Positions 21,416 to 64,000 of a DNA stretch of 64,000 bases are shown here, one piece after another. Where the stretch lies: positions 1 to 64,000 of the forward strand of contig NC_087386.1 of the NCBI RefSeq assembly GCF_963675165.1, written 5' to 3'. Source of the stretch: Halichondria panicea. Taxonomy: Eukaryota; Porifera; Demospongiae; Suberitida; Halichondriidae. The translations under genes and the position numbers were made by a program. How positions within the stretch are numbered: the stretch's first letter is position 1; each line of letters opens with the position of its first letter. The notes below the pieces were generated by a model, which saw only the letters and a program-made list of their open reading frames with translations, did not search any database and was not told where the DNA came from.

Positions 21416-21532
21416 GAGCTTAACCTTTGTGAATATCATGATGGCTTGCAGGAGCTACTGGTCTCACTACACAGGGAGGGTACTGGTTCCCTCCTCCGCA
21501 ACTATCTGATAATGTGTATTGCATATAGCAAT

Positions 21533-26153: not shown

Positions 26154-29100
26154 ATGGCCACTGTGTGCAAGAAATGGGCGAGTGTGTTTGGAACCTTGCA
26201 GCCAGTGATAATAGGAATGATCCATGTGCAAGCTCTACCAGGTAAGCCATACTGGTACCTACTGCGCATGCGCTAAGCCCCCCCCCCCCCCCCCCCGTGT
26301 AGGGACCCCCCACAACTGTCTGCCCATGATGGAGATAGTGAGGAGAGCAGTAGAGGAAGCGAGGATATATCGAGACACTGGATTGGATGCTTTACTTGTA
26401 GAGAATATGCACGACACTCCGTACCTAAGGGGTGTGGGGTCAGAGGTCACTGCCGCCATGACGAGGGTGGCATGTGAAGTGAGAGCGGCCGTACCTCAAC
26501 TACCACTAGGAGTGCAAATACTGGCAGGTAACCCTAGCGATAAGAGCATCCGGTCATAACTTTGGTCCATTTTTAGAAGTTGGCATTTGTATGGTCTTAC
26601 GAGACCTTGTGTTTAGAGAGAGGCCTTTCTATTTTTTGACAAAAGGACAAAAGACCATGAGCTTAGAAAATAAGGCCGTTCCAAATTTGGGATTTCAGCA
26701 TACCATCTGAACGGGAGCTATCACCTCTATGTATGTATACCCCCCCCCCCACACATGAACCATTATGTCACAATGGTCCCCCCCCCCCCCATACACTATA
26801 CAATACACAGGTTGCAACAAGGAGGCCTTGTCAGTGGCCCTAGCCAGTGGTGGGAGCTTCATTCGTGCAGAATGCTTTGTCTACTCCCACGTGGCTGATG
26901 AAGGTTGGATGGACGCTTGTGCAGGGGAACTGCTCAGATATCGCAGAACTATAGGAGCTGAGGAGATCATGGTGCTAGCTGATATCAAGAAGAAACACTG
27001 GTAAGCTAGTGTAGTGAGTGGCTAGCTACTAGAGGGGCCATTATATTGAGTCCTTCAATATCAGTAGCCTGTGCAGTAGTTGTATTCTGTAGAGATGTGG
27101 AAATAGTGAGAAGTGCACAGAACATTCCATAGGTAGCTGTCAAAGTCATTTGGAAATTATACACAAAATCAATCGCTAAATAATAACATCATTTGACAGG
27201 TCAATATTATTATTATTATCAATGCCCAATAGTTAGCTCTTGGGGAACTAGTTGGTACATGATATTCACTGGGATTGGTTGTTATAATAGGTGTGGGAGC
27301 ATTTGATCACCCTCCTCCTGTGTATTGCATTATTTTACAGTGGGAAAACTTTGCTAGTATTCCATTTAAAGTTCTTGCAATCTTTATTTGGAGCATAAGA
27401 ATGATGTCCCCCGTACCTCTGTACCTCCATGCAACCCCTCTACGCCATTGTTTGCCAATTCAATAATTAATTATTCACGGCTAGTTTATATTAGTGATGA
27501 TGTGATGAGGTGATGGGTGTGTCTCCATTCTTTAGACAACATGGCGAGCAAAGAACCTGTTAGCAGTGAAGTAGCTGATACTACGTGTCACATCTGTTTA
27601 GAGCAGTATAAGCACCCAAAGCTGTTGCCATGTGGACACACGTTCTGTCTCCACTGTCTGGTTAAGATGGAGGAAGCCAACACAAATCCTGGAGCTAATA
27701 TCTGCTGTCCAGAGTGTCGAACTAATCACACTATTACGAATGGCCCTTCATCTTTGCTGACTGACTACACTATGCTATGGGAGGTACAGACGTTGGCCTG
27801 GCGTGCTGGGTTGGATGAGAGGCGCTCTGTGTGTGGGGGGTGTCCTGATGGTCGTGATTGCCTCTGTTTCTGTATTGACTGCGATGATTTTCTCTGCTCC
27901 TTCTGTGTACAAGCTCACAAGCGAATGAAAACTTTAGCCAAACACAAGTTGATTGATGTCAAAGACCTAGCTACCATCAAGCCTAAGCCAGAGCCTATAT
28001 TGTGCTCATCTCACTCGTCCCTACTAGTGAGCATGTACTGCTCTACTTGTAGTCTGCTCATCTGTACTGACTGTATTACTCGTCACTCCAGGCACACACT
28101 CCACACCCTCACTGCACACACACTGACATCCTTTGAACACAAACTGGATGATCTTATCCAAAATATTGACAAAGCTGTATCCAAAAGAGCTCAAAGGATT
28201 GAGGAAATCAACACCGCTCAAGAAACAATGGAAGAAAATCCAGTTAAATTGAAACAAGCTATCAATGAAATGGCAGACAAGTGCTTGTTAGCTATAGAGC
28301 AGCTGAGAGTCAACGCACACGCACAAGTCAACCAACAACTAATCAGCTTGAAGAAAAGTACTGAACAAAAACAGACCATTACTGATGAACTAACTACGCT
28401 CAAGTCTTGTATGCAGTTCGCACAGAAAACCCTTTCATGTAGCGAACCTGCTGCCAGAATAGCAATGGTTGCTAAGGCCACTAGTGTGTTGTCAGGGGTT
28501 AAAGTGACCTGTACTGAAGTGCCAGCAACCGTACCGCTGTTTATGAGTGTCAACAATCTCGAATCCGTGCTCAAGTCTAAAGAGCTGGTATCTGAATTCA
28601 ACTCATCCAGAATAGAGGTGACTGGTTGGACTAACTCTATCCTCAGAAAGCAGAAGGTAGTACAAGTAGCTATTCCAGTGGTGCCTCCTCCAAAGCCAGA
28701 GTTCAGAGTGGAGTATAGTAGCCATCGTCGAGAGCTTTCAGTGAAGGTCACAGTCGTGGACAATAACACCTGGAGGTTAGAGTTCACTCCGTGCTACATT
28801 GGATGCCATTATTTGAAGGTAAAGCTGTTTGATGAATGGTTGTGTGTTCCAACGTCACAGTCTAGGCTTTCTAAGCACATTAATATTGAAGGCAGTTTGA
28901 CAGAGGGTGACATTGTGCGACCTCTGACTGAAGATAACACTGGTGATCACAAAGTTGGAAGAATTGATAAACTAGCTATTGTTCCCAGTAACTCAAGGAG
29001 AACTCACTCTTACACGATGGATATTATATGGAATTATAATACAGACAATTCAGTTCTAGAAGAAAAGCATACATTTTCTTATTTAGTGCGTGTTGGTAGT

Positions 29101-29777
29101 TTTCCTTTTGAACTTGTCCTAGCTGCTAATACTCCATAGGTAATAACATGCTGTGCAACTAACTAACTCTAACCCTAACTGTACTGTACACACGGCTTTC
29201 TGTTATCTCATCTCAGGAACTCTTACAATCCTTTTCCTTTTGAACTTGCTTTGAATTAGTGTTTCTGTGTGTGTACTTTATATGATTGTATGACTGCATG
29301 TTGATGTGTTTGTGTGAACGGAATTCCTACCTACTAATGTGTACTTAGTGCAAATGTGGATGCATGTGTGTGGGGGGGTGGTTTATTCTGTTCTGAAGTG
29401 TTTGTGTACATAAGAGCAATGGATTCTTATTTCCCAGTTCTCATTCTGTGACTGGTGACCTGAGTATTGGAGAGACGGCTCAAGCTGCTCGATTCTTTGC
29501 TGCTGATGGTGTGATAGTCACTGGAGCATCTACTGCACAACCTGCCAACACTTGTGAACTAGACACTGTACGCACTTCCCTAGGGTCAGAGGTCAATGGC
29601 GGGCTACCTATACTCGTAGGGTCAGGGGTCACTGTAGAGAATCTGGACAAATACATGTGTCGTGTGAACGGACTGATTGTGGGGTCAGAGTTCAAGGAGG
29701 GGGGACTGTGGAGTAATGCCATTGATGTTGAACGAGTAAGGAAGTTCCTGAGAAGGAAACACGAACTATTGCCCTAA
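26154..29777 (+). CDS. BtpA-family TIM-barrel protein
   Basis: Four exons: 26154-26241, 26303-26527, 26811-27000, 29438-29777, giving 280 aa. The BtpA family includes cyanobacterial BtpA, linked to photosystem I assembly, and poorly known animal homologues such as C. elegans F13E9.13. The animal function is unknown. Conserved parts are IIGMIHVQALPG, DALLVENMHDTPYL, GVQILAG, ADIKKKH and DGVIVTGASTAQPA, then ILVGSGVTVENL near the C-terminus. The pattern is that of a (beta/alpha)8 barrel. The last intron is 2437 bp, far longer than its neighbours, and contains a complete intronless TRIM gene on the same strand. Phases match across it (TG plus T giving Cys). Intron 2 contains a dispersed repeat and poly-C runs. 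Confidence 0.92.
27541..29139 (+). CDS. TRIM-type RING/B-box/coiled-coil protein, nested in an intron
   Basis: Uninterrupted frame of 532 codons. A RING finger of C3HC4 type begins at CHICLEQYKHPKLLPCGHTF (residues about 17-60), followed by two B-boxes (about 98-140 and 158-200). A long predicted coiled coil covers about 205-310. The C-terminal part includes VTVVDNNTWRLEFTP and has the look of a filamin-type repeat, as in TRIM2/3/71, but no NHL repeats follow. TRIM proteins are usually ubiquitin E3 ligases. A ctttag just upstream of the start may end a 5'UTR intron. The gene lies wholly in the last BtpA intron on the same strand. Being intronless among intron-rich neighbours, it may be a retrocopy that inserted there (inference). 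Confidence 0.9.
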   Translation: MASKEPVSSEVADTTCHICLEQYKHPKLLPCGHTFCLHCLVKMEEANTNPGANICCPECRTNHTITNGPSSLLTDYTMLWEVQTLAWRAGLDERRSVCGGCPDGRDCLCFCIDCDDFLCSFCVQAHKRMKTLAKHKLIDVKDLATIKPKPEPILCSSHSSLLVSMYCSTCSLLICTDCITRHSRHTLHTLTAHTLTSFEHKLDDLIQNIDKAVSKRAQRIEEINTAQETMEENPVKLKQAINEMADKCLLAIEQLRVNAHAQVNQQLISLKKSTEQKQTITDELTTLKSCMQFAQKTLSCSEPAARIAMVAKATSVLSGVKVTCTEVPATVPLFMSVNNLESVLKSKELVSEFNSSRIEVTGWTNSILRKQKVVQVAIPVVPPPKPEFRVEYSSHRRELSVKVTVVDNNTWRLEFTPCYIGCHYLKVKLFDEWLCVPTSQSRLSKHINIEGSLTEGDIVRPLTEDNTGDHKVGRIDKLAIVPSNSRRTHSYTMDIIWNYNTDNSVLEEKHTFSYLVRVGSFPFELVLAANTP

Positions 29778-45136: not shown

Positions 45137-48100
45137 CTAGTCGTCTTTTGTCATTTCTGTCTCGGGGTCAGAGTTCTCCTCAAGGAAAGCATCGCTGGAT
45201 ATGTCAGAATACACACTTTGTGCATCGTATTCGCTAGAAGTGCTGACTCGGCATTCCTCGAGGCATTGACTTAGCTCTTTAAAGGTTGGCCGTGATTGGT
45301 CGTCTTGTGCCCAACACTCGTTCATGATAGCGTAGATACGACCAGAGCAATCTGATGGTTTCTGTAACACCTTGCCGTGACGCACCCTCTCCATGACCTC
45401 TTCATTAGAGGTGCCATAATAAGGCTGCATTCCAAGTGTGAACACTTCCCACATGACCACTCCAAAGGACCACACGTCACCGGCAGTAGAGAACTTGCCA
45501 TATATGATAGCCTCAGGAGACATCCAGCGAATAGGTAGCACAGCTTGCCCCCTCACGCGATAGTAGTCCTTGCTGTAGAGGTTGTGGCTGAGTCCAAAGT
45601 CTCCTATCTTGACTAGAACTCTGGATGGTGTAGCACTGCAATCATCATCAGGGAGAGATGACACCAGGCAATTACGACATGCCAGATCACGATGCACATA
45701 GTTCATTACTGAGAGGTATTCCATTCCTTGAACTATTTGCTTGCAGATATCGGTGAGTTGTTCTTGATTGAGTGAGGCAGGATCATCAGACAGTGTAGAC
45801 TCAGTACGAGAGCGTGGGCGGTCCAGAGGGTTCATGTAGCGACGTTGTAGACTACTAGCATTCTCCCTCAGGAACTTAGCAAGGTCACCTTTATCCATAT
45901 ACTCAAACACCAGATAGTAGGGGGCCTGCGTCATGCTTACAGCTAGGATCTTGACTATGTTCTCGTGGTCAAATCCAAACATAAGCTTAGCTTCATTCAC
46001 GAAAGCTTCTATTCCATCGTTAGTATCTTCCTTGAGTGTCTTGACAGCCACGTGTGTGTCAGGCTCTGAGCTGCCTTCCATGCCTCGTAGCTTGCCCTTG
46101 AACACCATGCCAAAGAAACCTTGTCCTAGTTGCTTGACATACTCTATGTTGGCTTTGGGGACTTGTTTGAATGAAGCGATTGCAGTGGCCACTTTAGGAG
46201 GGAGCAGTTGAATACGTGGATATTGATTATTGTCTCTGAACTTGACATTCTTGACAGAATCGTTGCCAATGACATGCAGCTGAGGTGAACTGGCAGTGGT
46301 TTGTTTCTTGTGCTTGTACACCACAAACCCAACGACACCACTAACAGTAACACAGATAGCAATGACTACACAAATCCCTAACACTACTGGAGCCACAGCA
46401 CTAGCAGGATTGGATGATGAGGGGTCCTTGGTCTCAATACCTGCAGGGGAGAGATGGCAATGAGTGAGGTATAATACCGTATAGTGGGTAATTTTCGGGG
46501 GACAAAATATTCGTGGTTGAGCAGTATTTAGTCATTTCGTGGATATTATTTTCGTGGTTGCTGCTTGCACTGCAGGTAAAGGTAGGCAAGGTTGCTTCAT
46601 TCGTGGGTAAAATATTTGTGGTCAGACCGAATATTTTGTGATTTTTGTCCCACGAAAATTACTCTTTATACGGTACTTTGGTACATGATTTTCTGAAAGC
46701 TTAAAATGGCTCCTTGAAATTAAATGTCAATTTTTGGTCTGTTTTTGACATAATATACCATACACCATGGGTCTTTTACCAAAAATAAGAAATTATGACC
46801 CGTTTCAAATTTGGGATTTGAGCATACCATCTAAAAAAGCTCCTTCTAGTAGTAAGCTTTCAGAAAATCAGAAAATCCTTGACTTTGGACCACAGAGCCG
46901 AATCTAGTTACTCTAAATGCAGGGGCTCATGCAGTCTTGTTTGAAGCTTTATACACGTGTGTTAGATGCTATGCATGCACATATGTACCCTCACCAACAA
47001 TGGAGCATGATTCAACGAGACATAGCTCAACGAGGCCCTGGTTGTTGAAACACCACGGAGCTTTGGCCCACTGTCCTGGATTCCTGCATGTGCTACCAGC
47101 TCCCACTAGCTCTGGGTAGAGTGTGGCAGTGAAACTAGTGTTAGTCTCGCTCCAGTCCATACAAGGCAGGTTAGACACTGTGCGTGAGTGTGGGCCACTA
47201 TAGCTCTGGCCATAGTCACTGCTGTTGTAGCAACCTGCAAGGGGAGAATGGAATGAATGATGGCAAGTCACTTCTGTAGAAAGAAGTCAGCTAAAGTTGC
47301 GGCCTAGACTGACTGGCTGGTGGTGGCATATGTTGTGTGGTCAGCATTGATAAGGTTTGTGGTGGAGGGAATCACTTGAGTGCTATTGATGAGCCACCAC
47401 ACCACATCACCAACACCACCACTAATACACTAAATCACCAACAAGAATGTGCAGGCACTCTGGACTCACTGCTGACAGCTTGAGTGGTGATGATGGTGGG
47501 AGAGGGCATACACTGCTCACTAGATGAGAGACTGCAATCAGGGCCTAGTAGTTGATTAACACGATGAGTAGAGCTCCAACGTGATGTCAGCTCAGAGAGA
47601 ACCTTGACAGGACAAACTAGCCTCATCTCATCTCTCAGTGTGCAATGGTCTACACAAGAAGACAGAGGACTAGGAGAGACTGCATGGGGGGAGTACAGTG
47701 TGGTAGGGGACTAGGAGAGACTGCATGGGGGAGTACAGTGTGGTAGGGGACTAGGAGAGACTGGTGTGAGCTGGGGGGTGGGAAGCAGCCATGAGCTCAG
47801 AGGACCTCTCTATGGGCTCTAACCACAAAGACTTACAATAGCTAACCACAAGTAATTGAATATCAACAGACCTCCATCCTTGCAGAAGGGCAGTGATCCA
47901 TGACATATAAGGAGAGTGAGAGCATTCTGACAGGCAGGGCTCAGTTTATCCCCCTCTAGACTGTGATACAGGCCCACCATGCTCCCCTCTATATCACCCA
48001 GTGACACACTGCTCCAACCCTCACGATTCACGTGCACACTTCTCTCTCTGTAGCCGGACAGCGAGGAGCAGAACTGACCACCATACATCTCACAAGTATC

Positions 48101-50920
48101 TGCAATAACCAGTAGCACCAATTAACAATGTTAACACTGCACACAAAGACACTAACTATGCGCCAGTACACACTAACACCAATTAACACATAAACCATCC
48201 AACACTGAACTACATACACTCACGACATTGTGGAGGATTGCAGTACTCCCACCGACCACTGCCTCTAGCTATGTAGCACCACGGTCGCTCTCCTATGCCA
48301 CCTGGGTTACGACAAGAGAAGCTAGCTCCATATAGCTCCAGTTGGAAGTGAGCAGGGACAATAGAGTGGGCGTTGGGTGACTGTGAGTACCAGGACTGAC
48401 AAGGTAACCCACTGGCAGTGCGTGAGAGGTGACCAGCGTAACTTCTACCATTGCCTTTAACACACTCCACTTGTTCCACTACACCCTCACCAGGGCTATC
48501 TGTATATAACACATAGTTAGCCTATAATGCATGCTATATGACTGCATGCTTCCTTACCTACTGCAGGGCTGTCTAAGGACACATAGATACACTCCGGGCT
48601 CTCTCCTCCAGGGGTAGTGCGATTATCACAGCTGGCAAACAGAGCATAACGCAGTGGGAAGAGCTGATAACGATACTCCTCAAGGAAGGATGGATCCAGG
48701 AAGAAGCCACAGAATCCTTCAGCTCTGAGAATGTTACAAGTGTGCTTGCAGAGAGGTCGTGGTACAGGATGACTGGTGGTAGAGCTGGCATCACAATAAG
48801 GGTATACACTACTGCAGGCAATGCCTCGAATAAAGTCATAACATTGATCAATAGTCTTTTCAGTGATACCGGCAGTCATATAGCGTGTGGAGGCCAGGTT
48901 ACCATGGTGACTGGCCGTGTAGGTACCTATCAACCCAATCTGTTCACTTATGGTGCTTTCCAACAACTCTGCTCCGCTATTGACCAGGACGTTTGTGTCT
49001 TCGTGGATAAAGTTACGACATATCCCACCGTTGTAAGGTTGACAAGGACTGCAGGAAAGTGCACGGTAAATTAATTAATGCAACCACTGTGTGGTAGACT
49101 GTGGTGGATGACAGATGCTATCCATTACCCTCTACACTTGTACTGCTACTCAATAACTGGCTTCCCACAACTCACTGTTGGTGGGTAATGTTCACTGACA
49201 CTGCATGATATGGAGGGATAAACATGGTCATCACACACACACACACACAGTGGGTTAGGTAGTGACTTACCTGCTCTCTTGATGGTGACCTTCTTGTTGA
49301 CAGTCAGACGTCTCTTGAGGTATGGAGGGTTCACGTGAATACTAGAGGCAGAGCAGTAATAGTCCCCAACATCAGACAATGAGACTATTATCTGATATCC
49401 AGTTCCTGTGAGTGTACCCAACTTACGACCATTACGTATGAGGAGGACATGAGGGGGCGGGGCACCTCCAGCTGGACACTGGATAGTGACAGTGTCCCCT
49501 ACACTCACTGTCAGTGTGATGTCATCACTCTCCAGGAAATAGGGCGATCCTGTGTGCAGTCAATGCAGAGATAGGCAATGCAGGGGGTAGGATATAGTCA
49601 ATGCAGGGGGTAGGGGGCTTACTATATACATACAGACAACTTACTTTGTTCCCCAAAGTAGAAGATGGGAGAAGGGAACTGATTGTAGAGGTACATTCCT
49701 GTGGTATCTTTATACCTGTTCCGTATCTGGAAAATGTAGTATTTGTCCCTACTGACTGGAGGAGTGTGTGTGTAGTGTGTGTCCCGTGCTTGGCTCGTGT
49801 TGATGTAGAATATTTCTGGGGCTGGTAACACGGGACCATTGTCCATATAATCATCAAGATCTTCTGGTTCAAACATGAGCACATACACAGAGTATCTGCG
49901 AGAGCCATGACAATATTCCATGTGGGTAGGACGAATAGTAGAGTCCCATTGTACAGTGACCATCTGGGTAGAGTTGATAGTGCTCACTGCAGCACTCATG
50001 TTGACAGCATCAGGATGATAGCAGCTAGGTTCATTGTCTGTGACTACTCCTCTGATCTGGTGCTCTGCATACACACACATATAAGCACATAAGCACATAA
50101 GCACATAAGCACACATACAAAACGGTGACTTACGTAGTTCTGAGTAGACATCAAATCTTGCTTCAGTAAATCTGTGCTGCACTTTGCAAATATAAAATCC
50201 TCTGAAGGCCTCATATTTCCTATCACTGCATGATGCAATGGTTAGGCCGCAGTCTAGTTGTAGTGAACCAGTAGAGTTAGGCTGGCCCAATATCCTGCGG
50301 CACTGTGGGTCTGCCACACTTAATGCTAGACCATACTCATTGATCCAATAGTGTGTGTCCGTCACTGAATGATATTCTTTCCCAGAGCGCGGCCTGAAAG
50401 TCCAGCTCACTGCGAACTTATATTCCTTAAAAACGAAATTCTTTGTACCATTGTACTTGACTCTGCAGGGTATGTGGCAGGAGGTGGGACCGATATCAGC
50501 GTCATCAGTTTGGATATTCTTAGTGCCAGCTATAGGGAGAGAGGGGCCAGGGGGGAGGAAGAGAGGTGGTGGTTAGCACAGAGGGGGTGCTAACAGATGA
50601 TAATTACTGCTCTGCTAACACACAAGGGAAAGTGGTAATAGTAGCAACTTAGCACTCAACCACTATTAAACTTGTTAGGGATGGATCACTAGATCAGATT
50701 ATTACTGTGTGTTCAGCTTAGGCTGGTCTGATTGTAGAATGTTCAGTGGAGGGATCATGTCACGTCAGTACATGCAAGCAGAGACATAATTATATGAGCT
50801 AGCTGTACATGGCTCAACTGACATACTGTATATATTCATTATTGCAGCCTCACCGAAATCACTTGCGAGGGAGGCTCCCACCAGCAGCAGGACTAGTAAA
50901 CCAGCTCTTATCATCATCAT
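45137..50920 (-). CDS. ROR/MuSK-like receptor tyrosine kinase with two frizzled-CRD/kringle pairs
   Basis: Eleven exons on the minus strand: 50920-50854, 50529-50134, 50064-49645, 49549-49271, 49200-49176, 49048-48558, 48499-48224, 48099-47872, 47649-47470, 47234-46995, 46440-45137. Phases agree throughout, giving 1301 aa. Signal peptide MMMIRAGLLVLLLVG; two extracellular beta-sandwich-like regions (about 23-294, the second FN3-like); Ig domain (295-387); frizzled CRD (396-559, CQPYNGGICRNF); kringle (560-651); second CRD-like region (652-787); second kringle (788-867); membrane helix (about 886-909). The kinase has GQGFFG (973), Lys1001, HRDLACRN (1117), DFG (1149) and activation loop YSKDYY (1156-1161), typical of ROR, MuSK and Trk. 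All catalytic residues are present. One exon holds the membrane helix and whole kinase. An in-frame upstream Met exists at 50971. Confidence 0.9.
46475..46675. mobile_element. MITE, family with TACCGTATA ends (copy 1)
   Basis: About 201 bp in a receptor-kinase intron. It starts taccgtatagtgggtaattt and ends with aaattactctttatacggta, which is the inverted repeat with a few mismatches. There is no coding capacity. It belongs to the same family as the element at 53593-53760. Confidence 0.7.
47681..47770. repeat. Short tandem repeat in a receptor-kinase intron
   Basis: Three imperfect units of about 40 bp: ggactaggagagactgcatg then ggggagtacagtgtggtagg. Confidence 0.85.
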
Positions 50921-51636
50921 CCCGTACAGTCTCTCTGGTTGGCTAGCACAGTCAGCCAGTGAGTCAGTCAATACAGAGAAAGCCTGAGCTGAGGTGTCTA
51001 TATAGGAAAATGTGCAGACCGCAGCATCTAATTATACGAAAAACAAGCTCCTGGCCACATAAAGAAATATTAAAAGCTGTACTCTACTGTACTGCTCTGA
51101 CTGTACTGCATGCATGTACTGTACAAAGTACAGTGTACACATGTACACGTACACAAGACCCTCATTATCTCTATAGCCCCTATAAACATTGTAGCCTCTG
51201 ATCTAACACTACACTTTAGCCGTCCTCTGGATTGATGTCTTCTGACCCCAAGAGAAAGCAAGCCAAGCCATACAGTATGAGCTAGCTCTCGTATTATGTG
51301 CTATATATCATCATGAGCCCTAATTATGGTCACACCATTCTGGTGTGTGTGATGCTGTCTAAGTGTCTAATGGGTTTGGGTATAAAGAAAGCCTCAGACA
51401 CGTAATTAGCCTCCACACAACACATCTATTGACCACCTAATATTATTAGAGTCCTGTGTACATGCGCAGGTGGTCCTCATGTCTCCAGTGACGTGACATG
51501 TGTGGAGGTTCTCGGCTTTATCCTGGACACACACATACACTTGTCCGCCCCCTCACCTCACACAACAAATGCCTCGGGAGGACGGAGGGAGCTAGTGTCC
51601 GCCCCCTCACCTCACACCCCGGGAGCACGGAGGGAG
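50921..51636. other. Divergent region between receptor kinase and UBE4-UBC gene
   Basis: A 716-bp gap between opposite-strand start codons. The frame of the plus-strand gene stays open upstream to about 51493 without an ATG, so a missed 5' exon is possible. Positions 51545-51640 hold a tandem duplication of about 53 bp (gtccgccccctcacctcaca). No other gene is seen. Confidence 0.4.
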
Positions 51637-54600
51637 ATGGCGCTCAGTTCCCACCAACTACCACTCAACAAAGGGGAGGGGACAAGACAAACATTTCAAG
51701 AGCTTTTATCGTCTTGTGCAGCTGCTGAGATTGTAAGTCTATTTATGTGTAACAGTTTTGGATATTTCTGGCTCAGGATGTGCTCGAGTATGCAGTTGGT
51801 TGCTATTCTCGTGCTTCCAGTCATCCTAGGCCATCATGGGATAATGAGGTATGGAGGGACATCTCCGCTGTTGCCATGGATACTACTGCACTGCTGACAC
51901 TACAGCAACTAGTGCAAGGTATTTTACTACACTCATGTGATAGGTTCATGACCTTCATGTGACGGGTTCATGACCTCTGTAGCTTCGTCCTCTCCTGGCT
52001 CTAATGATCTCTGGTCTGGTTTGTATGGAGGGAGAACTGTCAATGTGAGTCTCGTGTGTGTGTGTGTGCGTGCGTGCGTGTACACCCTGCCTCTTGTGTC
52101 CTCCCTGTACAGAGGGTGTTGAGTGGCTTCCTAGAGCTGCTCTCTGGTTGGTCGGAGGGTGGACTGGAGGTGACACCAAGCATGCTACACACTATTGCAG
52201 TACATGCACAGGCTGGACACAACAGACATGCTCTAGTACAACTGGTCAGTCCTTCCTAACCATGAAGCCACTTGCCTCTAATGTCATTATCAGTGCTCTC
52301 TCTATAGGTCAAAGGTGGCGGACAGTTACTCAGACAAGTCACTAGGTAAGCACACACACACACATACACACACAGCAGTGAGACCTTTCACCTCTTAGAT
52401 TGGACGAACTCCTTGTGAAGGAATCACGAACCCTGAGTGGCCTCGATCGTCTCTTCTCAGAGGTACGCCCACACCACACCACACACACCACACACACACA
52501 CACACACGCCCACACAGCCGCTAGTGGCGGAATTGTTGGCTGGGGAGTTGTTGGATGAGATTCAATTCAAATCAGGGGCAGAGTTTGAGAGCAGTTCTTT
52601 GTTTGGTGATCTCCTCGGTGTAACCATGGTGATAGATAAGCTACACACACAGTTACTAGTGGATAAGAAATATAGTTGCTTCCTGGAACTACGTAACTAT
52701 CCCACCGTCAATACTGGTGACATCATTTCCTGTCATGTAAGTATGAACCCTGGCCCCTAGCGCACATTAACCCTCTTCCTACTATATAGAGCCAGCTACA
52801 AGATGCTCTGCATAGAATACACACAACCATCCAATCTGCTCTCCTTAAGATGCTCAAATCACCTCACAAGAATATGTAAGATCACCCTCACACCTCACAC
52901 ACCACCCTCACACACCTCACACACCACCCTTATAGAGTGCTTGGGTGGCTGGCGGCAGTTGTACATCTCAACATTCCTAGGGTGGGTCCAAGGTTCAGAG
53001 GTCAACAGGGTGGTGGGATCCAAGGTGCCTGCTCTGATGGTAAGACACACTACATGTATATAGTGGTGTCATGATGACACTGCATGACACACTACATGTA
53101 TATAGTGGTGTCATGATGACACTGCATGGCACACTACATGTATATAGTGGTGTCATGATGACACTGCATGACACACTGCAGGTTGGATGGTGAACTTTTG
53201 CTCCGTGTTGCTGGAGTTGTGTCGACCATTTTTCAGTAGCAGTAGCTCTGGATCCAAGTTGTCCCTCATCCACTCCTCTTATCCCAGCTCTCCGTTGTGC
53301 AGACTGCAGCTCAGTCAAGAGCCTTGCTTGGCAGGGGGACATATTGGTGAGACTAATGCATGCTGGGACATGTCTGGTCGGTATGCTACAGTGGATTGCA
53401 GTGCCGCAAAACAGATAATAATTTCTAAGCCTAAACTAGGGGCTTTTCAATATTTCAGTTTGACCCTAAATTATAAATAAAAGAGCAAGCTTACGTAGGC
53501 CAGAATGATGATATACAATGTACATGCATGGCAACTTTCTTTTGCAAAGTCTTACGTATGTGTATGTATATATGTGATGACTAAGACTTAACTACCGTAT
53601 AGCGGGTTATTTTTGTGGGCAACTGACCTCCACGAAATTTAACGTAGGCGTGGCTTACCGGAACGTACGAACGCAGTGCAGGAAATGAACTTTTCACTCA
53701 CGAAAACCACCGTTTTCGAGTTGGACGAATTTTTTACCCCACAAAAATCACCATACAGTATCTAATAGTGGCTCAGTCTGTGCTGCAATCCACAACGCAA
53801 TAATTATGTTCACATACCGTATTTACTTGATTAAACGCCCTCCTTGATCGCCCATGGTAAAAGCTCTGATAAATGCCCATCTTAAATAATCGCCCATGTA
53901 TGGGCGTGGCACTGTGGGTGGAGCTGAACTAGCACGTGGAACCAGTTGCAAGCGTGGCAGCATAGACTATAGATACTTTTTATGGTGACAGAGAGAGAGA
54001 GAGATACCAACACAGAGGGAGAAACACCACTTCTATGACTTAAGATTTAAGCTGAGAGCTGTGGCAGCAGCGAAAAAGAGCATAATAACTGCTGATGAGC
54101 AAGAGTTTGGAGTAGACATGACCAATAAACGCCCATTTCGAATAAGCGCCAATCTCGTTTAAACGCCCCCTTTACAGACTTTTAAACGCCCAGGCGTTTA
54201 ATCAAGTACTAATAAATACGGTAATTATATTCCATAGTTATTCTGTAATCTATGACCACTCAACCATGCAGCCTTTTAGCCACTGTGTGTCTAAGCTGTG
54301 CAGTCAACCATGACCACTAATTACATTACTAAAATAGACACAACCCAGTGTGTTCATACACTAATTTTAATTTGGCAGAATTTAAAGTTGAAATTCAGTC
54401 AACCATGACCGGCCACTAGTAGGGAGAATATACAGTGTGTGGTCATGGTTGAACTGCCAACCAACCTGAAATCCTGTGTACATGTACATTATCTGAAACA
54501 CTAGTAGCTCTTTATTGGTTGGGAAAGCAATGTTGTGGGCAGACTAATGATACACCATAACCAGCTTGCATGTTGTGGTGTGTGTGTGTGGTAATACAAT

Positions 54601-54679
54601 CTCTCCACTAACACACACATGTATAGAGCTTCTTTATTGCTCCTATTTGAGTGATCTCATTATGTATCCTGTCCACACG

Positions 54680-54719
<40 letters not shown>

Positions 54720-54938
54720 GGAGGCCATTATGTGGAGGGATATTTGTCAGGAGGTGGCTTCAAGTTTGTAACTGAGTTATTTTTCCTGACACAAAGGGCT
54801 CTACATGTTGGACTATTACCTGCAGTCAACCAGTTCACTCAAACTTCCTCTCAACTTGCCAAACAATTGCTGGCTACTAACATGTCCTCTCCCCATCTCA
54901 AGCAGCTCAACTCAGTGAGTAGACCCACCCACTCCACA

Positions 54939-54998
<60 letters not shown>

Positions 54999-57900
54999 AC
55001 TCCCACCCCCACACACAGTTGCACATGCTGGCTGGGACCTGCTGCTTGCTGGACCCTCTGCTTGTACAGTATTGCTCAGAGTTCTACATCACCCAGGCAG
55101 TGTGGCTTACTAAGCTACTAGAGGACCATTGTATAGAGAATGACCAGAAGAGCATATTGTCCACTCTACCAGAGCATGCAGTCAAGGACATGGCTCTGTG
55201 GCTCCAGTTCATTGTGCTCAGTAGACCCACCTTGTTGCAGGGACTGCCAGTGAGTGTGTCCCTGATACTAACCACTCACTCTCTCTCTCTCTGCCTTATA
55301 GTTGACACCATTTATAGACTGTTGTGTGTGTCTATTGGAGCGCCCTGACCTCCTACCTAGTCCATTGGCTCAGAGTAGACTAGTGGGAGTACTTTTAGCC
55401 TGTCTCAACAGTGATAGGAGGGCACCACAGTAAGCACCACAAGCATACTCTGTATCCCATATTATACTGTACCCTTCCTCTGTAGGAGACTGCTAGGCTC
55501 TGAAGGTTGGGGGTAAGTACACACACACCTCACACACACACACTCAGCCAACACCCACTCCACCCACACACCCACTAGTGGTATCCTTGCTGAATTGTCT
55601 GTACTGGTGCAAGCTAGTCCATCAGTGAGAGACAAGTTAGGCCCCGCTCTCCTCCACACCTACGCTGCAGTCAGTGTTGTGGAAGGACTAGATGTGGACA
55701 AGGAGAGCTTTGACAAGTTTGCCACTAGGTACCCCTCCTCTGTTAACCACACCCATTAACCACACCCCTATCAGGTACGAGGTGGCTCAGCTGCTACTAA
55801 GACTCTGGGCACGTGATGATGCTCGTGCTTCCATTCTAACACAATGCTCTTCCAAGAAGTTTACGGTACTGTGACCTTTGTGTGTGACTAAACCTTGACC
55901 CAAGCTCTTACAGGCATTTCTTGGTGCAGTGTTAGACACACTCTTGTATCAGCTTAGTGACGCTCTCTCCCGTCTGAGCAATGTGCATGGGTGTGAGGCT
56001 GCCAAAGAAGGTAAGCCCACACACGCGCGCACACACACACACGCACACACACGCCCACTCACTGATAGGATGGAGTGCTTTGTCTGAGAGGGAACGCCGT
56101 GAGAAAGAAGTTTTCTTAACAGGAGAGCAACGTGCAGCGAAAGGATTCATGACACAAGCTAGTCTTCAACTAGACCTCCTGGCTCTAATGACACTCAGTG
56201 ATGTTGTGGTAGAGTGTTTGTTAGACCCCCAGCTGGTCAGAAGGACCGCCCACACAGTAAGTCAATGTGAGGGGTGTGTATACCGCTCACACAGTGAGTC
56301 ATTGTGTGAGGTGTGTATACCGCCCACACTGTGATTCATTGTGTGATGTGTGTATACCGCCCACACAGTGAGTCATTGTGTGAGGTGTGTATACCGCCCA
56401 CACTGTGATTCATTGTGTGAGGTGTGTATACCGCCCACACAGTGAGTCATTGTGTGATGTGTGTATACTGCCCACACTGTGAGTTCACGTGTGCACCCTC
56501 TTGTGTAGGTGTTGGGGCTACTGGAGACATTGTGTGGACCAGCATCCTCAGAGCTCAAAGTGGCGGACATGGAGAGCTACTCATTCAAACCCAAGGCTCT
56601 TGTGTGTCAACTATCCTCTGTCCTAGTACGAGGCTGGCAGATTGCAAGGGGTCGGAGTTCACTCTTCCTACAGAGCATAGTAGAGTATCCGGAGTACAGT
56701 GCTTCTACCATGAGCAAGTGTGTCGTTATTCTCTCCACTGAGCAAGTGGCCTTATCCACAGAAATGGCTCAACTATCTCAGCAGGTATAGCCTGGTCATA
56801 CCGGGGAGTTGAAAATCTTTCAACAGCCATAACTTTAGTACCATTGATCCAATATTATTTATTTCCTGAATATATAAATTTAATTATGACACCATTTACT
56901 ACACCATTTGAAAGGTCTCCTTCTAATTGTCAGAAAATCATAAAAATAATTGTTGGAAGTTGGATCCTAAGTTATGCTAGCTGAGAGATTCCCCAAACCA
57001 TTGATTAAATGGGAGGGGGGTTAGCTTTGTGTTATTTTCTAGAATTCAGCTGTTTTGGCAGCTATCTTTGAGGGCCTGTAACTGGTTGTTCCTGTAACTT
57101 GTGCTGTCTGATGGAGGTATGCGTGGCCTTAAAGCTGGGTCAACTCAGCCTACCACGAACTAACCCTAACCCTTAATTACACCACCCCCCCACACACACG
57201 CGCGTAGGTGGAGTCCCTTCAGTCTTCTGTGGAATCAGCCTCTTTCATTGACGGGGCTGCCCCTTCCAATCATGACTGGCAGAATATTGCTGACTCATCA
57301 ATAATTGACTCGAATGGTTTGTGTGAACTGTACGTGAGTGCATTGGAAGAGGTCAAGTATGAAAGTGCCGAGCTGGTCGACTCTCATCTACTAGCTGATA
57401 AACTGCCGCCGACGCTTGACCCGAGGTCACCAAAGGTCAGAGCTATACTCCGTGATATGAAACAACTACAAGAGTCCCTCCCACTTCATCCTGACTCAGC
57501 AATATTTGTTAGACAAGTGAGTGGTATGTTGTTAGACTTGTCATGTCCCCACACCCCACTCACCCACACCCACACACACAGGATGAAGATCGTATGGACC
57601 TAGTGCGTGTGCTTATTACTGGCCCTACAGACACTCCATACAGTCGAGGTTGCTTTGTGTTTGATATCCTCTACCCCAGCTCTTACCCCACACACCCTCC
57701 TCTGGTCTTCCTCACTACCACTGGAGGGGGTACTATTAGGTGGGCTCATTAGTGGACACTGCTCTCATTATGTCCCGGTGCTTGCTTGTGTGTTAGGTTC
57801 AACCCTAACCTATATGCTGATGGGAAGGTGTGTCTAAGTCTTCTGGGTACATGGCATGGAGGAGATGCTTCTGAGAAGTGGGACCCCCTAAGATCTAACC

Positions 57901-58465
57901 TACTCCAGGTACCCCCCCCCCCCACACACACACACACACACATCACAATAGGTACTGCTCTCCATCCAAGGCATGATTCTCATCTCAGACCCCATGTTTA
58001 ATGAGCCTGGCTATGAGACTATTAGAGGCAGTCAGGAGGGACATGTAAGTACTGCCTGGTTGGTTGGTGTGTGTTGATTAGCTCTGTGTGTGTGTGTGTA
58101 GGATCGGAGCAGACTCTACAATGCTGACCTTCGTGTGCACACAGTGCGTTATGCTATGCTAGAGCAGTTGAGACATCCTCCCAAAGGTAACCACCCACCC
58201 CCACCACTCTCCTAGTCCCCCGCCCCCACCACTCTCCTAGTCACCCGCCCCCAACACTCTCCCAGTCACCCACCCCCACCTGACCCTTGTCCCCACCCGA
58301 CCTTTGCCCTCTACAGGTTTTGAAGATGTGATTCAAGTGCACTTTGCCTTGCAGCAGGAGCCACTATTAAAGCAGCTATCTGATTGGCTGAACCATTGCA
58401 TATCTCCAGAGCAGCAAAGGCGACTCAGGAAGGCAGTGGATGAACTGAGGACACTGTTAGACTAA
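51637..58465 (+). CDS. UBE4/Ufd2 core fused to a BIRC6-type ubiquitin-conjugating (E2) domain
   Basis: Twenty-five exons: 51637-51732, 51777-51918, 51983-52044, 52113-52244, 52308-52345, 52399-52462, 52518-52736, 52790-52875, 52936-53039, 53182-53346, 54718-54914, 55019-55249, 55302-55429, 55486-55512, 55579-55728, 55775-55865, 55914-56010, 56069-56256, 56509-56784, 57208-57516, 57582-57739, 57797-57908, 57952-58044, 58102-58186, 58317-58465. Frame holds to give 1132 aa. Residues about 250-830 match the Ufd2/UBE4 core: [54 protein letters not shown]. Where UBE4 has its U-box (EFRDPLMDTLM...) there is none. Instead residues about 870-1110 are a BIRC6-like UBC domain: [39 protein letters not shown] (catalytic Cys999) and FNEPGYE. 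It may act as an E2/E3 hybrid. The start is the first in-frame ATG and could be incomplete. Confidence 0.82.
53043..53178 (+). repeat. Minisatellite in UBE4-UBC intron 9
   Basis: Three units of 43 bp: acacactacatgtatatagt then ggtgtcatgatgacactgca. The last unit is followed at once by the ctgcag acceptor of exon 10, and actgca is also the unit end, so the acceptor looks like the terminal unit. Confidence 0.9.
53593..53760. mobile_element. MITE, family with TACCGTATA ends (copy 2)
   Basis: About 168 bp in UBE4-UBC intron 10. It begins taccgtatagcgggttattt and ends aaaaatcaccatacagta, the inverted repeat. It is the same family as 46475-46675. Confidence 0.7.
53815..54223. mobile_element. MITE with TACCGTATTTACTTGATTAAACGCC ends
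   Basis: About 409 bp in the same intron. The left end reads taccgtatttacttgattaa and the right end is the reverse complement (ttaatcaagtactaataaatacggta, with a small insertion). Internal aaacgccc and gcccat motifs recur. It shares only the outer taccgtat with the neighbouring family. No coding capacity. Confidence 0.7.
54230..54473. mobile_element. Partial copy of the CAACCATGACC MITE family
   Basis: It contains caaccatgaccactaattac and ends gccaaccaacctgaaatc, both shared with the element at 58697-58863. The opposite terminal repeat was not found, so the copy looks incomplete or rearranged. Confidence 0.5.
56257..56505 (+). repeat. Minisatellite in UBE4-UBC intron 18
   Basis: Six units of 36-37 bp: cattgtgtgaggtgtgtata then ccgcccacacagtgagt. 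The unit end (ccgcccacacagtragt) copies the last bases of exon 18 and its donor (accgcccacaca/gtaagt). So a donor junction is tandemly repeated along the intron. Confidence 0.9.
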
Positions 58466-58913
58466 CAATTGCTCGAAACTCTCATTTATATACAGTTTAG
58501 TTTTGTATGACTCACAGTATTGAATTTTTCATACATGTATACGTAGTTTTTGTACGTAATTTTTTGTGCAAAACTTACCGTTTTGAAGTTGTATAATTGT
58601 TATACTCAACAAAGTTAATTATAATCCAACAATTAGCAATAATTAATTTTTTATGAAAGTATAATCACAGATCTAGAATAAAATAATTTTACAGATGATT
58701 TCAGGTTGGTTGGTAGCCTCCTTCACGAGGCCTCAACAACACTATATATATATAGAAGCCCTAGTGCACTCAACCATGACCACACACACTGTACGCTTCT
58801 TCACTAATGTAATTAGTGGTCATGATTGACTGAATGTCAACTTTCGCCAACCAAACTGAAATCCTCTGTACACAGTCATAATACATGCACACACAATAAT
58901 ATTATATACACAA
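58466..58913. other. Tail-to-tail gap, UBE4-UBC and RABGGTA
   Basis: A 448-bp AT-rich gap between opposite-strand stop codons. It includes a complete MITE at 58697-58863 and an aataaa near 58677. No gene is seen. Confidence 0.5.
58697..58863. mobile_element. MITE with GATTTCAGGTTGGTTGG ends
   Basis: 167 bp with terminal inverted repeats gatttcaggttggttgg and ccaaccaaactgaaatc (16 of 17 match). Inside, caaccatgaccac and gtggtcatgattgac are also inverted. It is non-coding. The family is shared with 54230-54473. Confidence 0.75.
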
Positions 58914-60654
58914 CTAAAGAGTGAGTTCTACAAGTCCAGGAACTATTGCTCTGAGCATATCCTGCAGAAGGGGTTTTCCCTGGGAGCAGAGGGGATTCCC
59001 CTGCAAACACAGCACTTGGAGTGTCAGGAGACTCTTCAATGCTTCCTTTATAGCCTCCAGCTCTGCAATATCTGGGAGGTCTGGTTGAGGATAGAAACAA
59101 GTCTATTATACTTATGTACACAAAAAAGGTGGATACAATTGTTAGTGAGGGAGAGGTGTTGTAAAGGAGCCTGGATATGAGGTAGGGCTACAAGATGGTT
59201 GTCATCTAGTATCAGTCTGGTAAGTGCAGGACAGATCAAGGTAGGAGGTAGACACCTCAGAGCATTGCCACTCAGATCCAGCCTTTCATAGGGAAGTAAG
59301 TACTGTGTGTGCTCCAACCGAGTCAGCCCCTAACGAACACGAGTACATTAGTGACACACCCACACACACACACCCACTCACCATGCCTGAAAGGTCCAGT
59401 GCTGTGAGATGAGTGGAGACTCTCAGAGCTTGTCTCAACATGAACCTGCTCACTGCATGACATATACACACTGCTGTCAGAAAATGGACAATTTTAGTCA
59501 GAAATTAATCACTGATCTAAGCACACCATGTAGCAGCTAAATAATTACAATTCAGAAGTCGGACATTCACAACCCAAGTTATGGACCATCAAAGTTGCTT
59601 CTAAAACTGCCCCATTTAGACATGCAGTGTGTGTACTCACTGAGGTCAGTGTAGTAGGATTTCCTGAGTGGGTCCACTTGACACAGCCGAGAGGTCATGT
59701 GTTGGATTAGGGGGGAATATTTGACAGGATCCAGAGATTGCATGAGGAGCACTGTGGTCAACAAGCACCCTACACACACAGAGTGTAGTGAAGGGTGAGG
59801 GGGTACACACACACACACACAGAGTGTAGTGAGGTGGTGAGGGGGCACACACACACACAGAGTGTAGTGAGGGGGTGAGGGAGTACACACACACACATAG
59901 AGTGTAGTGAGGGGGTGAGGGGGCACACACACACACACACACACACAGAGTGTAGTGAAGGGTGAGGGGGTGAGGTGGTACACACACACACAGAGTGTAG
60001 TGAAGGGTGGGTGAGGGGGTGAGGGGGTGAGGGGGCACACACACACACACACAGAGTGTAGTGAGGTGGTGAGGGGGTACACACGCACACACACACACAC
60101 AGAGTGTAGTGAAGGGTGAGGGGGTGAGGGGGCACACACACACACACACACACACACAGAGTGTAGTGAAGGGTGAGGGGGTGAGGGGGCACACACACAC
60201 AGAGTGTAGTGAGGGGGTGAGGGGGCACACACACACACACACAGAGTGTAGTGAAGGGTGAGGGGGTGAGGGGGTACACACACACACACACACACAGAGT
60301 GTAGTGAAGGGTGAGGGGATGAGGTGGTACACACACGCACACACACACACACACACAGAGTGTAGTGAGGTGGTGAGGTGGTGAGGGGGTACACACACAC
60401 ACACACACACACACAGAGTGTAGTGAGGTGGTGAGGGGGTGAGGGGGTACACACGCACACACGCACACAGTGTAGTGAAGGGTGAGGGGTGAGGGGGTAC
60501 ACACACACATACGCACACACACAGAGTGTAGTGAGGTGGTGAGGGGGTGAGGGGGTACACACACACACACACACACACACAGTGTAGTGAGGGGGTGAGG
60601 GGGTACACACACACACACACACAGAGTGTAGTGAGGGGGTGAGGTGGTGAGGGG

Positions 60655-60693
<39 letters not shown>

Positions 60694-60919
60694 GTAGTGA
60701 GGGGGTGAGGTGGTGAGGGGGTACACACACACACACACACAGAGTGTAGTGAAGGGTGAGGGGGTACACACGCACACACACACACAGAGTGTAGTGAGGG
60801 GTGAGGGGGTACACACACACACACGCACACACACAGAGTATAGTGAAGGGTGAGGGGGTGAGGGGGTACACACACACACACACACACACAGTGTAGTGAG
60901 GGGGTGAGGTGGTGAGGGG

Positions 60920-60980
<61 letters not shown>

Positions 60981-61061
60981 GTAGTGTGGGAGTGAGGGGG
61001 TGAGGGGGTACACACACACACACACACAGAGTGTAGTGAGGGGGTGAGGGGGTGAGGGGGT

Positions 61062-61092
<31 letters not shown>

Positions 61093-61615
61093 GTAGTGAG
61101 GGGGTGAGGTGGTGAGGGGGTACACACACACACACACACACAGAGTGTAGTGAGGGGGTGAGGGGGTACACACACACACGCGCACAGAGTGTAGTGAGGG
61201 GGTGAGGTGGTGAGGGGGTACACACACACACACACAGAGTGTAGTGAGGGGGCACACACACACACACGCACAGAGTGTAGTGAGGGGGTGAGGTGGTGAG
61301 GGGGTACACACACACACACAGAGTGTAGTGAGGGGTGAGGGGGTGAGGGGGTACACACACACACACACACACAGTGTAGTGAGGGAGTGAGGTGGTGAGG
61401 GGGTACACACACACACACACAGAGTGTAGTGAGGGGGTGAGGTGGTGAGGGGGTACACACACACACACGCACAGAGTGTAGTGAGGGGGTGAGGTGGTGA
61501 GGGGGTACACACACACACACACACACACACAGAGTGTAGTGAGGGGTGAGGTGGTGAGGGGGTACACACACACACACACACACACAGTGTAGTGAGGGGG
61601 TGAGGTGGTGAGGGG

Positions 61616-61654
<39 letters not shown>

Positions 61655-61834
61655 GTAGTGAGGGGGTGAGGTGGTGAGGGGGTACACACACACACACACA
61701 CACACAGAGTGTAGTGAGGGGTGAGGGGGTACACACACACACACACAGAGTGTAGTGAGGGGGTGAGGTGGTGAGGAGGTACACACACACACACACACAC
61801 ACACAGTGTAGTGAGGTGGTGAGGGGGTGAGGGG

Positions 61835-61873
<39 letters not shown>

Positions 61874-62237
61874 GTAGTGAGGTGGTGAGGTGGTGAGGGG
61901 GTACACACACACACAGAGTGTAGTAAGGTGGTGAGGGGGTACACACACACACACACAGAGTGTAGTGAGGGGGTGAGGTGGTGAGGGGGTACACACACAC
62001 ACAGAGTGTAGTGAGGGGGTGAGGGGGTACACACACACACACACACACAGAGTGTAGTGAGGTGGTGAGGGGGTGAGGGGGTACACACACACACACACAC
62101 AGAGTGTAGTGAAGGGTGAGGGGATTAGGGGGTACACACACACACACACACAGAGTGTAGTGAGGGGGTGAGGTGGTGAGGGGGTACACACACACACATA
62201 CACACAGAGTGTAGTGAGGGGGTGAGGTGGTGAGGGG

Positions 62238-62272
<35 letters not shown>

Positions 62273-64000
62273 GTAGTGAGGGGGTGAGGGGGTACACACA
62301 CACACACACAGAGTGTAGTGAGGGGTGAGGGGATGAGGGGGTACACACACGCACACACACAGAGTGTAGTGAGGGGGTGAGGTGGTGAGGGGGTACACAC
62401 ACACACACACACAGAGTGTAGTGAGGGGTGAGGGGGTGAGGGGGTACACACACACACAGAGTGTAGTGAGGGGTGAGGGGATGAGAGGGTACACACACAC
62501 AGAGTGTAGTGAGGGGGTGAGGTGGTGAGGGGGTACACACACGCACACACACAGAGTGTAGTGAGGGGGTGAGGTGGTGAGGGGGTACACACACGCACAC
62601 ACACAGAGTGTAGTGAGGGGGTGAGGTGGTGAGGGGGTACACACACACACACACAGAGTGTAGTGAGGGGGTGAGGGGGTACACACACACACACACAGAG
62701 TGTAGTGAGGGGTGAGGGGATGAGGGGGTACACACACACACACACACAGAGTGTAGTGAGGGGTGAGGTGGTGAGGGGGTACACACACACACAGAGTGTA
62801 GTGAGGGGGTGAGGTGGTGAGGGGGTACACACACACACAGAGTGTAGTGAGGGGGTGAGGTGGTGAGGGGGTACACACACACACACACAGAGTGTAGTGA
62901 GGGGGTGAGGTGGTGAGGGGGTACACACACACACAGAGTGTAGTGAGGGGTGAGGGGGTGAGGTGGTGAGGGGGTACACACACACACACACACACAAACA
63001 CAGAGTGTAGTAAGGGGATGAGGGGGTTAGTTAGTGCTCACATTTGTTGGATGGCTCTTCTTCCAATAGTTGCTGACAACTTTCCAGTTGAGACGCCAGT
63101 AGAGAGGGTGTGGCTTGAGTATGTGTCCATGGTAACAGCCCGTCCCCACGCACCCAATACACAGCCTCACCTACACACACACACACACACACACAATGTA
63201 GTGAGGGGTGAGGTGGACACTCACACACAATGTAGTGAGGGGTGAGGTGGACACCCACACACAATGTAGTGAGGGGTGAGGTGGACACTCACACACAATG
63301 TAGTGAGGGGTAAGGTGGACACTCACACACAATGTAGTGAGGGGTGAGGTGGAAACCCACACACAATGTAGTGAGGGGTGAGGTGGACACACACACAATG
63401 TAGTGAGGGGTGAGGTGAACACCCACACCCACACACACACACACACACACAATGTAGTGAGGGGTGAGGTGGACACTCACACACAATGTAGTGAGGGGTG
63501 AGGTGGACACCCACACACAATGTAGTGAGGGGTGAGGTGGACACACACACACAATGTAGTGAGGGGTGAGGTGGACACACACACACAATGTAGTGAGGGG
63601 TGAGGTGGACACCCACACACAACACCAGCTTACTGGGGGAGAGGGAGATGTTCTGTTGATCAAAAGAGATGTTGATTGTACTTGGCAGTGTAGGCAGTGT
63701 GGTCTGATAGAGTGTTGTAGGCCATTCCCCCTCACACACAATCTCACACACAATCTCCCCATCCATAGTGATACACAGTCTCTGGTGGACCTGAGTGGGC
63801 AGTGTGGAGGTGGATAGTGTGAGTGGTGCTCTCACATTGAGGGGTTGGTTGAAGGATATGACCAGCTTTGGTTGGGAGGATACTTGCAGGTATACCATAT
63901 CCACAGAGTCTAGACACCTCACTACAAACAAGGTGGGGGGTCAATATGTATAGCAGGGTGGGGGGCCATGACTTACCCTCCCCCAATAACCAGCGATGAT
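58914..64000 (-). CDS. RABGGTA: Rab geranylgeranyltransferase alpha subunit (partial, C-terminal part)
   Basis: Seven exons seen on the minus strand: 64000-63977 (runs off the edge), 63921-63634, 63170-63042, 59769-59641, 59452-59382, 59329-59137, 59080-58914. RabGGTase prenylates Rab C-terminal cysteines in the cytosol with REP. The edge exon gives HRWLLGEG, the end of the last PPTA helical repeat. Exon 2 is the Ig-like insert domain. Then come LLASQLESCQQLLEEEPSNKW, CLLTTVLLMQSLDP and the leucine-rich repeats (LTALDLSGM, YERLDLSGNALRCLPP, LILDDNHLVALP, LQVLCLQGNPL), as in vertebrates. N-terminal PPTA repeats lie beyond the window. Phases agree at every junction. Two introns hold related minisatellites, one of 3.2 kb. 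Confidence 0.93.
59775..63010 (-). repeat. 3.2-kb minisatellite in a RABGGTA intron
   Basis: About sixty units of 40-65 bp. On the minus strand each unit is one to three copies of ccccctcac or accacctcac, then tacactctgtgtgtgtgtgt and acc. The units differ in CA-tract length and in the number of ctcac blocks. The intron's true acceptor (ctcactacactctgtgtgtgtag, before 59769) is itself one unit with tag in place of tac. The unit has no stop codon in any minus-strand frame, so three overlapping frames of about 776, 1115 and 1140 codons appear; these are repeat artefacts. Confidence 0.95.
63180..63622 (-). repeat. Minisatellite in the upstream RABGGTA intron
   Basis: About eleven units of 38-42 bp, on the plus strand acacacaatgtagtgagggg then tgaggtggacactc. 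The core tgtagtgaggggtgaggtgg is shared with the 3.2-kb array in the next intron, so the two arrays have a common origin. One end reaches the acceptor of the exon at 63042-63170. Confidence 0.92.

Follow-up and report, generated by a model that had tools for sequence, protein, structure and literature searches.

Results

Domains of the product

Which kind of ubiquitin enzyme is encoded by a gene of the sponge Halichondria panicea that appears to join the core of an E4 ligase to an E2? The gene lies in a stretch of 64,000 nucleotides (assembly GCF_963675165.1, NC_087386.1, positions 1-64,000; hereafter the window, C10:1-64000 in our contig labels), in which an annotation made from the letters alone, the original prediction, had seen a Ufd2/UBE4 core whose U-box is replaced by a BIRC6-type UBC domain within one chain. 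This arrangement was borne out by the sequence and by its relatives, and the gene is apparently a member of an ancient, widespread and undescribed family, here named E4-E2. We consider it probable that the product is one protein of this family in which a BIRC6-type E2 has taken the place of the U-box, and that it works without a U-box.

In the Pfam search that the original prediction had proposed, the 1132-residue product of the model as first drawn matched Ufd2P_core at residues 230-834 (E 2.6e-80) and UQ_con at residues 925-1043 (E 8e-20); matches to the U-box, to the BIR domain or to the remainder of the BIRC6 body were not obtained for this product. With the UBC part (residues 906-1119, same numbering) BIRC6 was the best match (E 1.2e-70), followed by UBE2O and UBE2Z. 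The assignment of the first ~830 residues to a UBE4A/B-like core, and of the following part to a BIRC6-like UBC domain with its N-terminal extension and a catalytic Cys, was thereby confirmed. The absence of a U-box held as well, since a profile made from 81 UBE4 U-boxes gave nothing in the six frames of the whole window (E up to 0.5). The idea of an overlooked U-box exon was rejected, none being detected in the window. Numbered after the corrected 1201-residue product described below, the main features are:

52671-56784, + strand: Ufd2/UBE4 core (PF10408), residues 299-903 of 1201 (230-834 of 1132), its final residues lying just beyond the junction
56785-57207, + strand: phase-0 intron between the core and the UBC domain, 423 bp, no U-box detected inside
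57208-57429, + strand: linker and BIRC6-like N-terminal extension of the UBC domain, from the alignment of relatives; the family profile matches BIRC6 upstream of the UBC domain
57430-58423, + strand: BIRC6-type UBC domain, residues 975-1188 of 1201 (BIRC6 and UQ_con matches as above)
57831-57833, + strand: codon of the predicted active-site Cys (Cys1068), placed from the sequence; all 50 two-domain rows retain the Cys motif

Both domains on one chain in relatives

Besides the window's protein, at least 49 database proteins carry both domains, and the core is N-terminal to the UBC domain in all 50 rows. A search with the 1132-residue product, in which scoring was confined to the 7999 candidates with most words in common, returned at least 110 proteins, 46 of them with both domains according to precomputed Pfam. 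When only the core of a lancelet member was used as query, 25 of the 30 proteins listed belonged to the family and three further two-domain proteins were obtained.

Among the matches listed, the nearest relatives are P0001-P0003 (51-55% identity over 98-100% of the query), which are continuous open reading frames of 1268-1282 residues on contigs of 3924-4803 bases. Because an intron-rich gene would not fit on contigs of this size, we infer that they are assembled transcripts (cDNA). Comparison of the window's protein with P0001 gave identical residues at 36 of 73 aligned positions for the linker, 357 of 632 for the core and 175 of 226 for the UBC domain. Judged by homology, the question raised by the intron at 56785-57207 appears settled, as the chains of the relatives continue across the junction. 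Furthermore, core and UBC distances are correlated (0.937 over 42 rows), and none of 2000 permutations gave an equally high value.

The E4-E2 family

No described protein with this domain order had been known to the original prediction. The gene is no isolated chimera, since the same order in at least 49 other proteins indicates an ancient family. The order recurs in another sponge proteome, that of Dysidea avara (P0026), as well as in P0001-P0003, which group with the window's protein in trees. Going by source names, the animal members include Branchiostoma, Lingula, Owenia, a chiton, gastropods, sea anemones, stony corals and Dysidea avara, and the algal ones Myrmecia, Trebouxia and Nannochloris; Calcidiscus is a further member. 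We take the three algal genera to be green algae, Calcidiscus a haptophyte, and Branchiostoma, Lingula and Owenia a lancelet, a brachiopod and an annelid, respectively; P0114 presumably stems from Sycon ciliatum, to judge by its identifier. Many of the named members are annotated as uncharacterized, and among the matches listed no vertebrate or arthropod fusion was found.

Several signatures set the family apart. A U-box was found in none of 53 family rows (E up to 1) versus 109 of 121 UBE4-like rows (E <1e-5). The word GLDVD is present in all 53 family rows versus none of the 121 UBE4-like and none of 62 other UBC rows, and the active-site Cys motif was seen in 50 of 50 rows having both domains. 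A profile of the family (49 rows) matched residues 34-881 of the 968-residue chain of yeast Ufd2 (E 1.4e-65) and, with its later part, the BIRC6 UBC domain including the extension (E 2.3e-120). The U-box forms the C-terminal end of Ufd2. The profile match ends 87 residues before the Ufd2 C-terminus, and therefore the replacement sits at the U-box itself.

In a careful tree of the cores, a branch with 100/97 support divided the 37 family rows from the 20 UBE4 rows; 23 of the 80 rows were omitted from this tree, including three fast-evolving family rows and two human fragments, and the 80-row set included 31 of the 119 available UBE4-like cores. The same split was found in a quick tree of all 80 rows (support 99). 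The careful UBC tree, from which 18 of 108 rows were omitted, set the 41 family rows apart by a branch (support 89/87) that was present in 90% of bootstrap trees, and the family group reached a support of 85 in a quick tree of all 108 rows. Support for one lineage is thus weaker from the UBC tree than from the core tree.

Four members were also compared with NCBIfam, a prokaryote library, and gave no matches there. P0040 is named after a viral-type E2; a viral origin was considered and rejected, as a viral collection gave 69 pattern-matching stretches and no confirmed relative. In the literature searched, which was covered in part and had preprints and most subscription journals outside its scope, no description of an E4-E2 fusion was found. 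A snail survey reports a ufd-2 sequence with Ufd2P_core only (PMC6548493), which might be a fragment of an E4-E2 gene or of UBE4.

Gene structure

The whole gene spans 51235-58465 on the + strand and consists of 26 exons in a single reading frame with GT..AG introns, giving a product of 1201 residues. The original model of 25 exons proved correct in its single frame, which is free of stops and has GT..AG introns throughout (1132 residues), and fell short in exon number and length. Its start was too late, because the homologues extend further N-terminally. An earlier start is provided by an ATG at 51235 (exon 51235-51274) followed by an acceptor at 51470 (exon 51470-51732). The added N-terminus can be aligned with P0001-P0003, and an in-frame TAG is located six codons 5' of the ATG.

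Exons 1-9, + strand: 51235-51274, 51470-51732, 51777-51918, 51983-52044, 52113-52244, 52308-52345, 52399-52462, 52518-52736, 52790-52875
Exons 10-18, + strand: 52936-53039, 53182-53346, 54718-54914, 55019-55249, 55302-55429, 55486-55512, 55579-55728, 55775-55865, 55914-56010
Exons 19-26, + strand: 56069-56256, 56509-56784, 57208-57516, 57582-57739, 57797-57908, 57952-58044, 58102-58186, 58317-58465
51235-51732, + strand: corrected 5' end, composed of the first coding exon and the extended second exon; 69 residues beyond the earlier model
58677-58682, + strand: candidate polyadenylation signal AATAAA, 212 bases 3' of the stop

Two repeats touch the exons. Within exon 51470-51732, at 51540-51636, GTCCGCCCCCTCACCTCACAC is repeated in frame, and the extra residues are absent from P0001-P0003. 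The final 12 bases of exon 56069-56256 form the start of a 37-base tandem array (56245-56484), whose repeat unit contains an exon end and a GTGAGT donor-like site. The repeat unit of a distant array (21133-21419) likewise closes with CAGGTGAG. Minisatellites in this window may be growing out of splice donors.

Related genes in the same genome

The assembly (131.5 Mb, 39 contigs) was searched for separate UBE4 and BIRC6 genes, which the original prediction had suggested looking for. Core matches numbered 15. The window accounts for four of them, C3:5.982-5.986 Mb for five and C6:4.216-4.224 Mb for four, and two short matches fall at C6:1.94 Mb. The U-box search listed 10 matches: one behind the C3 core, two at C6:4.2 Mb, one at C6:1.95 Mb and the remainder elsewhere, with none on C10. 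The U-box exon between core and UBC domain that would have spoken against the fusion was thus found neither in the window nor, among these matches, on its contig.

With human query fragments of unequal length, the C3 locus scored as UBE4B-like (370 vs 140 bits) and the C6:4.2 Mb locus as UBE4A-like (307 vs 86 bits). Since separate UBE4-type loci are present, the fused gene co-exists with them and is no product of an assembly error. Contigs C15 and C11 contain exons of BIRC6-type UBC domains; C12, C9 and other parts of C10 gave weaker matches. The BIRC6 family PF12356 gave no match in this genome, a negative without weight, as all 14 control genomes were negative too. The expectation of separate genes was therefore confirmed for UBE4, with UBE4A- and UBE4B-like loci carrying U-boxes, and for BIRC6 as far as UBC exons, short of a whole gene.

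A partial UBE4-like copy is also present at C6:1941500-1949500. It comprises a U-box fragment and two equal-scoring short core matches separated by ~2 kb, and may represent a gene that was duplicated or broken.

N-terminal regions of E4-E2 members

A long stretch precedes the core in 39 family rows, including that of the window. Sixteen of these rows carry animal names; of the 16, nine have a hydrophobic leader and a second hydrophobic helix (~residues 40-220), five the second helix only at the threshold used, and two (Lingula and Littorina) neither. P0114 has leader and helix as well, as do several rows without a species name that cluster with cnidarians or gastropods in the UBC tree.

UBE4B binds p97 via its N-terminal motif, for which the consensus aliphatic-R-x-x-R-x-x-R (the p97-binding motif, VBM) has been published (PMC5559722). 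In a scan with a more permissive form, whose last residue may be R or K, a motif of this kind was present in 12 of the 39 family rows, versus 0.77 expected by shuffling. It is C-terminal to the helix in 10 of these 12 rows and is lacking in most molluscs. Of 68 UBE4-like rows, 49 have it among their first 120 residues. At the thresholds used, both the helix and the p97 motif were absent from P0001-P0003 and from the window's protein; the latter showed no signal peptide either, and no motif N-terminal to the core even in the permissive form. The window's copy is probably soluble.

The segment that separates leader and helix gave EF-hand matches. By Pfam these are weak in the members scanned, the best being Oculina (E 2.2e-5, under the curated cut-off). 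Four EF-hand families are precomputed for P0114, and Gigantopelta and Patella have canonical-looking EF-hand loops. Three named green algae show ubiquitin-interacting motif (UIM)-like patterns instead, with weak Pfam backing in P0033 (E 0.065); the loose pattern also matches P0002, P0003 and P0010, probably by chance.

These observations suggest, tentatively, an ancient one-chain E4-E2 class that would predate the split of green algae and animals, would have persisted in sponges, cnidarians, lophotrochozoans and lancelets, and would have disappeared from vertebrates and ecdysozoans, arthropods among them. In many animals it may be a membrane enzyme of the secretory pathway, with a lumenal calcium-sensing EF-hand, one helix, a cytosolic p97-docking motif and an E4 core with tethered E2 acting on membrane clients, that is, a self-contained, calcium-tuned ligase of endoplasmic reticulum-associated degradation. 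The line of the window's sponge would be soluble, and some algae would carry ubiquitin-interacting motifs at this place. Membrane identity and calcium binding of the anchored members are, like the losses, putative.

Proposed mechanism and alternatives

We propose that ubiquitin would be loaded by E1 onto Cys1068 of the tethered UBC domain. The helical E4 core would hold clients that are already ubiquitinated, or delivered by p97/VCP and shuttle factors, and position them beside Cys1068, where ubiquitin would be added or chains lengthened; client binding by the core is suggested by analogy with UBE4/Ufd2. A U-box recruiting a separate E2 would not be needed. The protein would thus act as a self-contained E2/E4, modelled on BIRC6 and UBE2O as self-contained E2/E3s.

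Several points weigh against this proposal. Activity, E1 loading, p97 binding and substrate are predictions, and transcription across the junction is deduced from relatives rather than from a transcript of this species. The window's protein is devoid of the p97-binding-like motif found in other members. Finally, three of the 53 family rows have no UBC domain: in P0014 the linker runs into an unrelated tail resembling a retained intron, P0021 has a UBC-less tail that looks like a frameshift, and P0114 has a low-complexity tail near the core end. All three could be genuine UBC-less forms.

An alternative that we regard as unlikely, yet the strongest of those considered, is that the UBC domain supplies ubiquitin and a separate RING or U-box protein, e.g. 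UBE4A or UBE4B, must activate the transfer. The persistence of UBE4A-like and UBE4B-like genes with U-box matches in the same genome is in line with this. However, the UBC domains of BIRC6 and UBE2O are the closest solved relatives; BIRC6 is described as capable of ubiquitin transfer without an independent E2, and both proteins are named as E2/E3 hybrids in a recent human survey (PMC13061254).

Less probable still is a pseudo-E2, in which case the protein would be a scaffold or decoy whose core holds ubiquitinated clients and whose UBC part merely binds partners. In its favour, the U-box, the source of UBE4 ligase activity, is missing, and the E2 activity is so far a prediction; yet the Cys motif is kept in all two-domain rows, and its surroundings are among the nearly invariant columns.

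That a U-box-less UBE4 fragment and an adjacent, stand-alone BIRC6-like E2 gene were wrongly joined in the model is very unlikely: the domains are split by the 423-bp intron, unspliced reading beyond 56784 meets a stop immediately, the variant polyadenylation signal ATTAAA occurs inside the intron at 57004, and P0014 and P0021 have a core without a UBC domain, but at least 49 proteins of other organisms, open reading frames on mRNA-sized contigs included, have both domains on a single chain, the linker is conserved over the junction, core and UBC domain diverge in step, and AATAAA is missing from this intron (the gene has three copies of it, all inside the long intron 53347-54717). The relatives together with the search of the sponge's own genome led us to reject this reading and to rule out an artefact of the assembly.

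Other features of the window

A ROR-like receptor tyrosine kinase gene (45140-50930, - strand) seems to be arranged head to head with the E4-E2 gene, with ~300 bases between the start codons. Its frames encode a leader peptide (near 50850-50930), an immunoglobulin domain, a frizzled domain that falls just short of the Pfam threshold, a pair of kringle domains, a membrane helix and a tyrosine kinase, and they would form a single gene. ROR normally carries one kringle. The remaining features are:

674-2071, + strand: forkhead-domain frame
27514-29136, + strand: RING and B-box (TRIM-like) frame
59048-59329, - strand: leucine-rich repeat frame adjoining the following minisatellite
59907-62994: 3.1-kb minisatellite, ~61 copies of a 52-base unit

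Discussion

The E4-E2 family opens the question of whether an E4 depends on the U-box itself for chain elongation or merely on an E2 close to the core. Natural orthologues are present in tractable animals (Nematostella, Branchiostoma) and in algae, and membrane-anchored members may combine ubiquitin transfer with calcium and p97 within a single molecule.

With UBE4A, UBE4B and yeast Ufd2 the family shares the Ufd2P core, its profile covering Ufd2 up to the last 87 residues, and some animal members also share the N-terminal p97-binding-like motif of UBE4. In contrast to UBE4/Ufd2, E4-E2 members are without a C-terminal U-box (53 of 53 rows) and have an attached UBC domain, and GLDVD is confined to them when set against the 121 UBE4-like rows. 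The core of the lancelet query is 22-25% identical to the five U-box UBE4 proteins listed, and the same query is 41-100% identical to the 25 family rows listed.

BIRC6 (BRUCE/Apollon) has a UBC domain of the same subclass, with N-terminal extension and active-site Cys, and likewise combines an E2 and a large binding platform on a single chain. However, the platform of E4-E2 is the UBE4 core, without the BIRC6 body, and the UBC domains of E4-E2 form a tree group of their own. UBE2O and UBE2Z, large and class IV E2s, belong to the same broad UBC subclass but match the family profile more weakly than BIRC6; to our knowledge, neither has a Ufd2 core. UBE2O is, according to the human survey, also an E2/E3 hybrid (PMC13061254). 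E4-E2 resembles the hybrids BIRC6 and UBE2O in having the UBC domain and a platform on one chain, the platform presumably binding substrates as suggested by UBE4/Ufd2. E2/E3 hybrids look rare, and E4-E2 would add to them an architecture in which an E2 substitutes for the E4 ligase module.

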